21,249 bases of DNA from Myxococcales bacterium (GTDB lineage: Bacteria > Myxococcota > Polyangia > Polyangiales > Polyangiaceae), in NCBI GenBank assembly GCA_020430865.1, contig JAGQIY010000694.1, positions 1 to 21,249 of the forward strand, given 5' to 3'. The translations under genes and the position numbers were made by a program. The notes below the pieces were generated by a model that saw nothing but the letters and a program-made list of their open reading frames with translations, made no database searches and was not told the DNA's origin. Positions 8,883-19,595 of this stretch are shown here, in pieces (position 1 is the first letter of the stretch; each line of letters opens with the position of its first letter).

Positions 8883-9122
8883 ATGCTAGCGCCCACTGAA
8901 CTCGAACAGCGGCTGCTCGCGTCGTTTCCCGACGCGAAGCTGCAGATCACCGACCTGACCGGCACCCAGGACCACTACCAGCTGCGCATCGTCAGTGGAC
9001 GCTTCACGGGCCAGGCCCCCCTCGCCCGTCACCGCATGGTGTACGCAGCGCTCGGTGAGGCCATGCACGGGCCGATCCATGCCCTGTCCTTCGAGGCGCT
9101 GGCGCCGTCGGAGGCGATTTGA
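8883..9122 (+). CDS. BolA/IbaG-family protein
   Basis: This 79-residue protein has full family length. BolA proteins partner monothiol glutaredoxins to hold and transfer [2Fe-2S] clusters; some also act as regulators. Recognisable features are the start LAPTELEQRLLASFPDA, the central DHYQLRIVSGRFTGQAPLARHRMVYAAL with its conserved RHR histidine, and an end HALSFEALAPSEA typical of the IbaG-like branch. The glutaredoxin gene with a CGFS active site starts 96 nt downstream on the same strand, a classic pairing. The start is the ATG at 8883 in a TGCATGC context without a strong ribosome site. Confidence 0.9.
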   Translation: MLAPTELEQRLLASFPDAKLQITDLTGTQDHYQLRIVSGRFTGQAPLARHRMVYAALGEAMHGPIHALSFEALAPSEAI

Positions 9123-9218
9123 ACCTCGGCCGCCCCTGCTCGGGGCGTGCTCCCATCCAGGCTATGCGGGGTCTCTCCCGCTGCGATCAAGGCGCGGCGC
9201 GCGCCGGTGGAGAATGAA

Positions 9219-9527
9219 ATGGAACAAGCACTTCGCGACCAGATCCAACACACCATCGACGACAACCCGGTCGTGCTGTTCATGAAAGGCAGTCGGCTGT
9301 TCCCGCAGTGCGGATTCTCGGCGCGCGTCGTCGACATCCTCAAGCGCCTCGATGTCTCGTTCAAGGACGTGAACATCCTCGCCGACCAGGGCCTGCGTGA
9401 CGGCATGAAGGAGTTCAGCGAGTGGCCCACCTTCCCCCAGCTGTACGTGAAGGGACAGTTCGTGGGAGGCTGCGACATCGTGAGTCAGATGTTCGAGAAC
9501 GGCGAGCTGGAGAAACTCGTCAAGTAG
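9219..9527 (+). CDS. grxD: Monothiol glutaredoxin (Grx4/GrxD type, CGFS)
   Basis: This 102-residue monothiol glutaredoxin of the Grx4 class binds a glutathione-ligated [2Fe-2S] cluster and passes it on, usually with a BolA partner. The active-site CGFS has its cysteine at C31 (PQCGFS). The glutathione-site features K23 (FMKG), WPTFPQLY (68-75 region) and GGCDI are present. The ATG at 9219 is chosen because GGAG lies 6 nt upstream and the protein then has the normal family N-terminus; the frame stays open to 9147 without family homology. It is probably cotranscribed with the BolA gene. A strong terminator follows at 9571-9606. Confidence 0.95.
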   Translation: MEQALRDQIQHTIDDNPVVLFMKGSRLFPQCGFSARVVDILKRLDVSFKDVNILADQGLRDGMKEFSEWPTFPQLYVKGQFVGGCDIVSQMFENGELEKLVK

Positions 9528-16672: not shown

Positions 16673-18280
16673 CTACGACATGTACGGGTAGCGCCAGTCG
16701 ACCGGCGGGCTCAGCGTCTCCTTCACCGTCCGAGGACTCACCCAGCGCGCGAGGTTCTGGGCGCTGCCGGCCTTGTCGTTGGTGCCGGACAGCCGCGACC
16801 CGCCGAACGGCTGCTGTCCGACCACCGCACCAGTCGGCTTGTCGTTGACGTAGAAATTCCCCGCGGCGAAGCGCAGTCGGCTGGCAGCGGACACGATCGC
16901 CTGGCGATCACGTGCGAACACGGCACCGGTCAAGGCATAGCCGCTGGTCGAGTCGACGAGATCCAGGGCTTCTTCCAGGCGTGCGTCGTCGTACACCCAG
17001 AGCGTCACCACGGGGCCGAAGATCTCCTCCTGCATCAGACGGTGCTTGGGGTCTTCCACCTCGAACAGCGTTGGCTCGACGAAGTAGCCCACGTCGCGGT
17101 TGCCGCCGCCCCCGGCGACGCAGCGCACCTTCGGGTCGGCCTTGCCGAGCTCCTGGTACCCGGAGATCTTCTCGAAGGCCTGGGCGCTGATCACCGCACC
17201 CATGAAGTTCGAGAAGTCAGCAGGATCACCCACCTGGATCTGCGCGATCGTCTCCTCGAGGATCTTCTTCAGCTCTGGCCACAGGCTCCTCGGCACGTAG
17301 ACGCGAGAGGCAGCGGAGCACTTCTGGCCCTGGAACTCGTAGCCACCGCGGACGATGGCCACGGCGAGCTGTCGCACGTCCGCACTCGGATGCGCAAAGA
17401 TGAAGTCCTTGCCACCCGTCTCCCCCACGATGCGTGGGTAGCTGCGGTACTTGGGCAGGTTGTTCGCGATCTGCGCCCACAGCGACTGGAACACGGAGGT
17501 CGAGCCCGTGTAGTGAAGCCCCGCGAAGTCGGGCGCCGCGAGGACTCGTGACGTGATGGCGACGGGGTCGCCGTTGACCAGATTGATCACGCCGGGCGGC
17601 AAGCCCGCCTCGTTGAACAGCTCCATCACCCGCTGGGCGGCCAGCATGGCGTTGGGTGATGGCTTCCAGATCACGGTGTTGCCCATCAGCGCAGGGGCGC
17701 TCGGCAAGTTGCCCGCGATGGCGGTGAAGTTGAACGGCGTGATGGCATACACGAAGCCGTCCAGCGGACGCTGCTCCAGGCGGTTCCAGATCCCGGCTGA
17801 AGAGCTTGGCTGGTCTTCGGCGAGCTTGTCTGCGTAGTGCGCGTTGAAGCGCAGGAAGTCGATCAGCTCGCAGGCGGAGTCGATCTCGGCCTGATGAGGG
17901 GTCTTGCTCTGTCCGAGCAAAGTCGCTGCGTTGACCTTCTGGCGCCAGGGACCGGACAGGAGCTCGGCGGCGCGCAGGAACACCGACGCACGGTCGGACT
18001 GGGAGAGCGACGCCCAAGCGCCCTTGGCCTGCCTGGCGGCGTCGAGGGCCTTCGCCAGCTCGGGCTCTCCCGCCAGGCTCGCGGCGCCGAGCTTGCGTTG
18101 GTGCGCGTGCGGGGAGCTGAACGTCTGCTGCTGGTCCGTGCGGATCGCCTCACCCCCGATCCAGAGCGGAAGGGACTCCGACTGATATGCCTCGACTTCC
18201 GCGCGCAATGCCTCGCGCTCGGGGCTGCCCGGGGCGTAGCTCAGGACGGGTTCGTTGCGGGGCTCGGGCGCCTGAATCAT
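16673..18280 (-). CDS. pruA: 1-pyrroline-5-carboxylate (L-glutamate gamma-semialdehyde) dehydrogenase, ALDH4A1 type
   Basis: This aldehyde dehydrogenase oxidises glutamate gamma-semialdehyde to glutamate with NAD, completing proline catabolism. It has 535 residues. Key sites are WKPS (K206), YTGST (258-262), GETGGKDF with general base E287, GQKCSA with nucleophile C321, EEIFGPV and VVGQQPFGGSRLSGTNDK near the end, closing with DWRYPYMS. The pattern follows mitochondrial ALDH4A1 and relatives along its whole length. It is a stand-alone enzyme, not the PutA fusion found in many Proteobacteria; a proline dehydrogenase partner is not in the window. The start has GGAGG 9 nt upstream. A stem-loop lies just upstream at 18315-18345. 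It is on the same strand as, and 109 nt downstream of, the RtcB-like gene. A name such as rocA would also fit. Confidence 0.93.
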   Translation of the reverse strand: MIQAPEPRNEPVLSYAPGSPEREALRAEVEAYQSESLPLWIGGEAIRTDQQQTFSSPHAHQRKLGAASLAGEPELAKALDAARQAKGAWASLSQSDRASVFLRAAELLSGPWRQKVNAATLLGQSKTPHQAEIDSACELIDFLRFNAHYADKLAEDQPSSSAGIWNRLEQRPLDGFVYAITPFNFTAIAGNLPSAPALMGNTVIWKPSPNAMLAAQRVMELFNEAGLPPGVINLVNGDPVAITSRVLAAPDFAGLHYTGSTSVFQSLWAQIANNLPKYRSYPRIVGETGGKDFIFAHPSADVRQLAVAIVRGGYEFQGQKCSAASRVYVPRSLWPELKKILEETIAQIQVGDPADFSNFMGAVISAQAFEKISGYQELGKADPKVRCVAGGGGNRDVGYFVEPTLFEVEDPKHRLMQEEIFGPVVTLWVYDDARLEEALDLVDSTSGYALTGAVFARDRQAIVSAASRLRFAAGNFYVNDKPTGAVVGQQPFGGSRLSGTNDKAGSAQNLARWVSPRTVKETLSPPVDWRYPYMS

Positions 18281-18389: not shown

Positions 18390-19595
18390 TCAGTCGCGGC
18401 TGAGGATGTACGAGATCTTGGTTTCGACTTCGATGTCGCCCAGATCCAGCTCCAGCATGCGTTTCCGGACCTCATCGCCCCGATAGCCATAGGCGGCGGC
18501 ACGCACGTCGCCCACCGCGTCCACCCCGCCATCGGGGCGGGTCAACTGGAACCTTCGGTCATCCGGCCCGTCCTCGAGCACGCCCTGGACGCCCGAATAC
18601 TGGCTGTAGGCGTAACCGCCTCCGTGCGGTAACAGGTTCACGGTCTCGAGACGCTGCAACAAGCCGTGGCGCTCCGCGCGCTCGCCAAGCCCCGTTTGCT
18701 CGAGGACGCGTGACTGGAAGCTCGGCTTGGGGCGCACCAGATACGCTGGGAGGTCGGGTGCCAGGGTCAGAGGAAAGCGCTGGCCGCTGTCGAGGTCCTC
18801 CTGGCTGAAGTGGTAGCAGCCGAGGATCGCATCGTTGATCGCCCCCAAGCCCTGATGGGTCCGGTTGCAGATCACCCGCAAACCGCCAACCAGCTCCCGG
18901 GCCAGCAGCTCTCGCCGACGCAAGCTGAAGTCCTGGCACCAGCTGTAGATCTCGTACCAATCCTGGGCGGCCTGTCCGCGCAGGATGTGCAGGGTGCCCC
19001 AGGGCGTTTGGCGGGGCTCCAGCATCGCGGCGAGCTCCTCACTGGCGTCGAAGTAGATCCCGGGTCCTTGGGGGGAGCGCTCGCGAAACTCGTGTCCGCT
19101 GGTGTGGATGATCACGTACTGATCGGCGTCTGCCTGGGCGCCATCGAACGTCTGCACCACGTCGCAGACGTCGACGAAATGGTTGCCTTCACCCAGATCG
19201 AAGTCGACCGTGTGGCCGTCGAGCTTCGGCGGGTCGCGCTGCAGGCGCTTCGCGTTCGCTTCCAGGGCTTCGATGTCGACGGGACGATCGGGGGCAACGA
19301 CGATCATGCCGCAACAGTTGCTCTTGATGTCGAGCACGGCGAAGTCGCCAGTCCACTGGATGCGGCCGCCATAGCCAAAGCCCTGTCCCCAGCGCTTGGT
19401 GTTGCGGGTGACGGTCGCGTCCGTCGCGCCGATGAACGACGCATCCGCCGGCAGCCCCAGCTCTCGCTGCACGTGGTGGATCTTCGCGAGGCCAAAGGCC
19501 ATGTTCGCCTCACACAGCGACTCGCCCACGTCGCCGACTCCGGACATGAAACAGTGCTCTCGGGCGCGGGCTAGGACTTGGTCGGGACTCGGCAT
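18390..19595 (-). CDS. Divergent RtcB-like protein (possible RNA ligase-fold enzyme)
   Basis: This 401-residue protein has no signal peptide. RtcB enzymes join RNA 2',3'-cyclic phosphate ends to 5'-OH ends using GTP and manganese. Seen here, in the RtcB order: a DI-x3-CCGM segment (D89, C94/C95; compare DIGCGM), GEGNHFVDV (N138, H139; compare GTGNHF), VIIHTSGHE (H164; compare HSGSRG), CNRTHQG (H247; compare the NCHHN region) and PHGGGY (H324; compare SHGAGR, site of guanylylation). Gaps between motifs differ from E. coli RtcB, most at C-to-NH, where this protein is about 45 residues shorter. The metal ligands and guanylylated His seem retained, so it may be active on an unusual substrate. The ATG at 19595 is the likely start; a GTG three codons upstream is also possible. 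No archease, rtcA or prfH gene lies nearby. Family assignment is by eye. Confidence 0.6.
   Translation of the reverse strand: MPSPDQVLARAREHCFMSGVGDVGESLCEANMAFGLAKIHHVQRELGLPADASFIGATDATVTRNTKRWGQGFGYGGRIQWTGDFAVLDIKSNCCGMIVVAPDRPVDIEALEANAKRLQRDPPKLDGHTVDFDLGEGNHFVDVCDVVQTFDGAQADADQYVIIHTSGHEFRERSPQGPGIYFDASEELAAMLEPRQTPWGTLHILRGQAAQDWYEIYSWCQDFSLRRRELLARELVGGLRVICNRTHQGLGAINDAILGCYHFSQEDLDSGQRFPLTLAPDLPAYLVRPKPSFQSRVLEQTGLGERAERHGLLQRLETVNLLPHGGGYAYSQYSGVQGVLEDGPDDRRFQLTRPDGGVDAVGDVRAAAYGYRGDEVRKRMLELDLGDIEVETKISYILSRD

Follow-up and report, generated by a model that had tools for sequence, protein, structure and literature searches.

The question raised by this locus is whether a protein that carries the signature motifs of RtcB, and is otherwise little like it, is an RNA ligase or uses the RtcB fold for another reaction. 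The gene lies in a stretch of 21,249 nucleotides from a Myxococcales bacterium (contig JAGQIY010000694.1), which was analysed as a whole and is called the window here; its position is given in Table 1. We find that its product is a member of a distant and coherent family, which is predicted to have the RtcB fold, carries RtcB-type active-site residues, and is distinct from the canonical RtcB of the same genomes. As to function, we consider the chances about even that the protein is an RtcB-type His-nucleotidyltransferase, which acts on a phosphate end or a small phosphoester without carrying out ordinary ligation. RtcB is described as the sole enzyme class known to join 3′-phosphate to 5′-hydroxyl RNA ends (PMC12699882), and an RtcB-like family may reveal a new reaction of this fold. 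In the open-licence PMC literature, no paper was recognised as describing the family.

The window protein scores 12.8 bits (E 0.071) against the Pfam RtcB family (PF01139), below the curated cut-off of 27 bits; the PHROG tRNA-splicing ligase gives E 0.089, an NCBIfam scan gave no match, and no RtcB was among the PDB sequences listed as matches to the single protein or to a 48-row profile. When alignments are compared by hhalign, the 94-row superfamily matches 19 canonical RtcB sequences at 95.6% (E 1.1e-8, 231 columns), with H247 set against the canonical HN and the C-terminus against the VK of VKG; the subfamily of the window protein alone reaches 81–82% (E about 1e-5). The superfamily profile ranks 16 of the 19 canonical sequences above the best of 955 decoys (E 0.67) and the other three no better than it. 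Conversely, with the canonical profile 33 of the 94 superfamily rows outscore the best decoy (E 1.0), led by the window protein at E 3.9e-4, and 19 go unreported at E ≤ 10. One weak superfamily match in a genome survey landed on a canonical RtcB gene (G014:C79). The sequence evidence is thus close to the limit of detection, and most weight rests on the fold. Fold comparison places the window protein in the RtcB fold over its full length, with 13–16% identity in the structure alignments and low Foldseek TM-scores (0.38–0.50 by query length, root-mean-square deviation 7.5–16). Fold and profile comparison together back the suggestion, made in the first-pass annotation, of a separate and very divergent clade of the RtcB fold. 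The clade is well populated: 361 homologues were found at E ≤ 1e-3 (8000 candidates scored), the best 120 of which are 48–88% identical to the window protein, its own copy aside, and an archaeal member used as query retrieves 841 database proteins at E ≤ 1e-10. Among the matches listed that have a name, all are called ‘hypothetical’ except P0266, a member of subfamily C automatically named ‘RtcB family protein’ by NCBI.

The motifs initially noticed in the protein (NHF, HTSGHE, NRTH, PHGGGY and DI..CCGM) are all in place, as D89-I-K-S-N-C94-C95-G-M, N138-H139-F, H164-T-S-G-H-E, N244-R-T-H247 and P323-H324-G-G-G-Y, and so is the shortened spacing between the Cys and the NH motif (44 residues from C95 to H139, compared with 90 from C78 to H168 in E. 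coli RtcB). They do not arise by chance, because the homologues at E ≤ 1e-3 are so many and C95, N138, H139, H164, H247, and H324 are invariant in 75 members, i.e., the window protein and the products of 74 out of 78 loci (L039, L072, L076, and L077, with less than 331 residues of protein, were left out). Residues were matched by means of a merged alignment; a global hhalign run misplaced the N-terminal half and was not used for mapping. The correspondence between window protein and E. coli RtcB is D59-D48, N93-D75, C95-C78, N138-N167, H139-H168, F140-F169, D142-E171, H164-H185, H168-R189, R228-R247, H247-H281, H324-H337, Y328-R341, Y371-Y380, R372-K381, and S399-K407. D59, N93, F140, Y371, and R372 are likewise invariant in the 75 members.

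The residue numbers of Pyrococcus horikoshii and E. coli RtcB were paired in part by counting along the motifs. With this pairing, the Mn(A) ligands Cys98, His234, and His329 are matched in the alignment by C95, H164, and H247 in 75/75 members, and the guanylylation residue His404, with Asn202 and Asp65, by H324, N138, and D59, again in 75/75. The Mn(B) set (Asp95, Cys98, His203) is incomplete: Cys and His are retained, while the Asp column holds Asn in all 75. Among the guanine contacts (Phe204, Glu206, Lys480), F140 is found in 75/75, the Glu position is Asp in 45, Asn in 26 and Glu in one, and the Lys position is Lys in 59 and Arg in 7 of the 75. The metal-B column contains Asp in 19/19 canonical sequences and in 4/4 members of subfamily B2, and Asn in all 90 other superfamily rows. 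The Arg residues of HSGSRG and HGAGR, present in 19/19 canonical RtcB, are lost as well, position 168 being Arg in one of 75 members and position 328 Tyr in every one, hence Arg in none. The claim that the RNA-ligase catalytic residues are kept thus stands for four of five metal ligands and the guanylylation His, all invariant, but not for the second-metal Asp column or the two Arg; similarly, of the two Cys offered as metal ligands, C95 is conserved and C94 is not (Cys in 21/75). A first hhalign run had pointed to D89 as the metal Asp. This candidate was dropped, because B2 has its Asp at column 93, the merged alignment agrees, and D89 is unconserved (Asp in 56, Asn in 16, and Glu in 3 of the 75; Leu in subfamily B1, Asn in C, Asp in B2).

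Table 1. Position of the RtcB-like gene and of its conserved motifs in the window (Ec, E. coli RtcB).
Feature	Position	Strand	Remarks
RtcB-fold protein gene, 401 residues	18390..19595	-	ATG at 19595, runs to stop
Signature D59-ATVTRN-xx-R68-W69	19389..19421	-	D59 = Ec D48; 7 residues without counterpart in canonical RtcB rows
N93-C94-C95-G96	19308..19319	-	C95 = Mn ligand (Ec C78); N93 in second-metal Asp column (Ec D75)
N138-H139-F140	19176..19184	-	= Ec N167-H168-F169 (triphosphate Asn, metal His, base-contact Phe)
H164-TSGHE	19089..19106	-	H164 = Ec His185; H168 at Ec Arg189 position, variable in family
N244-RT-H247-Q248	18852..18866	-	H247 = Ec His281
P323-H324-GGG-Y328	18612..18629	-	H324 = Ec His337 (guanylylated His); Y328 in place of Arg341
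Y371-R372	18480..18485	-	= Ec Y380-K381

In the reaction that we propose, His324 would be charged by a purine nucleoside triphosphate through the Mn(A) site (C95, H164, H247) with Asn138 and Asp59, giving a His-nucleoside monophosphate (His-NMP), and the nucleotidyl group would then be handed to a phosphate group. The second-metal Asp-to-Asn change and the lost Arg residues suggest that ordinary 3′-phosphate/5′-hydroxyl ligation is not completed; more likely, the protein would cap or activate (nucleotidylate) a phosphate end or a small phosphoester, or join an unusual acceptor. Charging of His324 without ordinary ligation is predicted because of mutant results with Pyrococcus RtcB and human RTCB. 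In the Pyrococcus enzyme, D65A, D95A, N202A, H203A, F204A, E206A, H404A, and K480A each inactivate the enzyme on its own; with archease, F204A, E206A, and K480A regain ligation, while D95A regains only guanylylation of the RNA 3′-phosphate (PMC3973293).

The genes adjoining the family were examined in a list of 128 flanks, from which 26 loci had been left out as lineage repeats and L003, L010, and L038 dropped because the simple gene caller missed the family gene; 99 flanks belong to the subfamily of the window protein, and 92 of these were scanned, seven long ones being left out. HD is the sole Pfam family seen more than twice in the 92 flanking proteins (14/92). The 75 loci, with 674 genes in all, offer 139 immediate slots, and these hold 16 of the 17 copies found with an HD-family profile (p 7e-11, relatedness ignored); 14 of the 17 lie on the same strand at ≤100 nt, upstream or downstream, in archaea as well as in bacteria. 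The residues invariant across the 17 copies include H37, H72, D73, H117, and D137, and the PDB relatives of this partner include 2pq7, YedJ, and 5dqv, the last of which is the Mn-dependent dNTP diphosphatase YpgQ (PMC8177086). In L030 (Helarchaeota), genes for a metallophosphoesterase, the HD protein, the RtcB-like protein, and an ATP-grasp-like protein (match under the Pfam cut-off) follow each other on one strand; an ATP-grasp-like gene adjoins the family gene in 5/78 loci, and a divergent GalT/HIT-like gene is a neighbour in 9/10 rows of the Hodarchaea/Heimdall tree group. The best PDB matches of the calcineurin-like phosphoesterase neighbour are 2dxl/2zo9, a phosphohydrolase. In the proposed scheme, the HD, metallophosphoesterase, GDPD, and GalT-like neighbours would produce or strip the phosphate groups. 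Archease stands next to the family gene in one of the 92 flanks, that of L022 (2880-4629, Bathyarchaeota), where it is convergent with the RtcB-like gene about 110 nt away, and RtcA is not among the 25 commonest of 79 flank families. Archease occurs in 19/24 member genomes, within 2 kb of canonical RtcB in 12/19, and a general link of archease with the family is therefore rejected.

The distribution of the family is patchy, and it is commonest in Asgard archaea. A scan of one genome collection with two peptide patterns gave 78 loci, a lower bound, in Myxococcota, Asgard groups, Bathyarchaeota, Woese- and Nanoarchaeota, Armatimonadota, Chloroflexota, and others, the most distant bacterial and archaeal members being 30–43% identical to the window protein. 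In the phylum of the Lokiarchaeota genome, 56/148 genomes contain a superfamily member (at least six of the 56 known beforehand); in 44 the best E is about 1e-61 or lower, and these score like the subfamily of the window protein; of the others, 11 score like C and one like B2. In the phylum of the Polyangiaceae genome 5/187 are positive, four strongly, two being seed genomes; in that of the Bathyarchaeota genome 1/151, which is the seed; and in that of the Nanoarchaeota genome 8/148, of which two, one being the seed, are strong and the other six weak (E 6.6e-5 to 9.7e-4), at a score level where canonical RtcB also matches. In a tree of 93 superfamily rows (L013 left out, no canonical RtcB, drawn with a midpoint root), one supported group of 12 rows (100/98) unites the window protein with the myxobacterial rows; L023, also labelled Myxococcota, falls outside it. 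Canonical RtcB co-occurs in 22 of the 24 member genomes searched, a few of the matches being pieces (e.g., G013, G011), and a replacement of canonical RtcB by the family is thus rejected. In the genomes of L021 (Desulfobacterales) and L056 (Halothermothrix), drafts that may be incomplete, neither canonical RtcB nor archease was found; the RtcB-like gene and its HD partner are present in both. A mobile or viral origin is unsupported, since one viral-contig scan gave no confirmed relative and comparison with BFVD no fold match at E ≤ 0.001.

Several points weigh against nucleotidyl transfer without ligation. In human RTCB, Ala in place of a metal ligand, whichever of the five is changed, leaves no ligation and reduces guanylylation or removes it altogether (PMC10944509), and the Asn variant might therefore be weak or require another activator. 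The C-terminal Lys position is S399 in the window protein, and the nearby D89 might stand in for the second-metal Asp. The HD/phosphoesterase-type neighbours were not seen in the Myxococcota loci, the window included, where gene calling was crude, and for this reason the function is carried over to Myxococcota by homology. Finally, a role on RNA is conceivable, as nucleic acids are also among the substrates of HD, phosphoesterase, and HIT proteins. D89 and the retention of the whole RtcB fold with most catalytic residues would fit a full 3′-phosphate/5′-hydroxyl ligase of a new RNA substrate, whose ends would be healed by the HD and metallophosphoesterase partners; indeed, HD-domain phosphodiesterases can act on RNA (PMC8177086). 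We regard this as doubtful, given the Asn in the second-metal column, the loss at the Arg189 and Arg341 positions, the scarcity of RNA-repair genes in the flanks, the canonical RtcB already present in nearly all of the member genomes searched, and the GDPD and gamma-glutamyltranspeptidase genes beside the deeper subfamilies. Such a ligase would be a stronger version of the view put forward in the first-pass annotation, whose distinct RNA-repair or tRNA-related substrate stays conjectural; the recurrent neighbours are HD phosphohydrolase, metallophosphoesterase, GDPD, GalT/HIT-like, and ATP-grasp-like proteins.

These neighbours, several of which (HD, calcineurin-like phosphoesterase, GDPD) hydrolyse phosphoesters, would also suit a Mn phosphodiesterase or phosphatase that needs no nucleoside triphosphate and uses the metal site only, on a small (cyclic) phosphodiester, with the neighbours as further steps of the same breakdown; such an enzyme gives no reason for the invariance of His324, Asn138, and Phe140 in 75/75 members, and we consider it unlikely. 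A catalytically dead RtcB scaffold or regulator, for which the altered Asp column could speak, is very improbable, as the catalytic His and four metal ligands are invariant across bacterial and archaeal members as distant as those described above. The His-nucleotidyltransferase can also be put in a more specific form, which seems to us quite unlikely: a natural RtcB-derived 3′-phosphate capping enzyme without ligation, which would furnish RNA, DNA, or a small phosphoester with a stable ppN cap, to be removed by the HD (YpgQ-like pyrophosphohydrolase) or GalT/HIT-like neighbours. Aprataxin is a HIT protein. It works via a covalent His-NMP and removes RtcB-made DNA 3′-ppG caps (PMC4499129), and a HIT/GalT-like or HD pyrophosphohydrolase partner therefore suggests, speculatively, a capping-decapping pair. 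If true, an end-capping or phosphate-tagging system as yet without a name would extend across Asgard archaea and be shared by myxobacteria. Since 56 of the 148 Asgard genomes searched have a member, the superfamily is part of the gene stock of the archaea held nearest to eukaryotes. A large sister family of RtcB with a natural second-metal change and a repeated phosphohydrolase link offers a direct test of the residues that separate guanylylation from ligation.

Within the superfamily, subfamily B2 (L115, L117, L118, L119) is a natural intermediate, with the canonical metal Asp kept at column 93, Ser/Gly in place of Asn138, and His in place of Tyr328. Three B2 loci have, upstream, a gene that weakly matches a glycosyltransferase. 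The B1 gene is found between a gamma-glutamyltranspeptidase and a 303-residue protein in 4/4 loci (L112:3192-7251, L113, L114, L116), and the latter has no Pfam match in L112. A metallophosphoesterase and GDPD lie within 1.1 kb of the subfamily C gene in 9/11 loci, and an ABC transporter gene in the other two. This metallophosphoesterase (L120:3231-4814; relatives in L121, L122, L129, L130) is about 525–555 residues long; in L120 it has a second phosphoesterase-like half with GE for GD and GDND for GNHD, which looks degenerate.

In the window itself, the gene is flanked by genes for a 1-pyrroline-5-carboxylate (P5C) dehydrogenase (16673-18280) and an unnamed protein without Pfam match (19956 onward). 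As noted at the outset, the usual partners are absent: no archease, RtcA, or RtcR was found when 12 other proteins of the window were scanned with Pfam or NCBIfam. Elsewhere, the window encodes a small secreted-like protein with cysteines and repeated TGGSAG units at its end (1240-1725), a FliQ/SctS-type export protein (Bac_export_3; 1728-1982) with no further export gene among the window proteins scanned, and BolA, whose gene is followed by that of a CGFS-motif glutaredoxin (8883-9527).

Among characterised systems, canonical RtcB (PF01139; P. horikoshii, E. coli, human RTCB), a 3′-phosphate/5′-hydroxyl RNA ligase, has the fold in common with the family. Both have the same order and identity of Cys/His metal ligands, the N-H-F motif, the Asp48-type Asp, the guanylylation His and, in most family members, the C-terminal Lys. 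The window protein has 401 residues, compared with 408 in E. coli and 505 in the human numbering. Unlike canonical RtcB, the family has an inserted TRNxxRW stretch, Asn in the Asp75 column, no Arg189 or Arg341, mostly Asp/Asn at the Glu171 position, and genes other than archease in 91/92 scanned flanks. The Pyrococcus D95A mutant lacks the second-metal Asp, as does column 93; it is, however, a laboratory Ala mutant, whereas the Asn is natural and fixed (75/75). The YpgQ-type HD pyrophosphohydrolase (5dqv) is a characterised relative of the HD partner, not of the RtcB-like protein, recognised by phmmer only (E 1.4e-6 and 8.7e-11). A myxobacterial precedent for capping is provided by the RtcB paralogues of Myxococcus xanthus, which has six RtcB sequences (PMC12699882), one of which, RtcB3, caps 5′-phosphates (PMC10630183); the family of the window protein scores below the Pfam RtcB cut-off.
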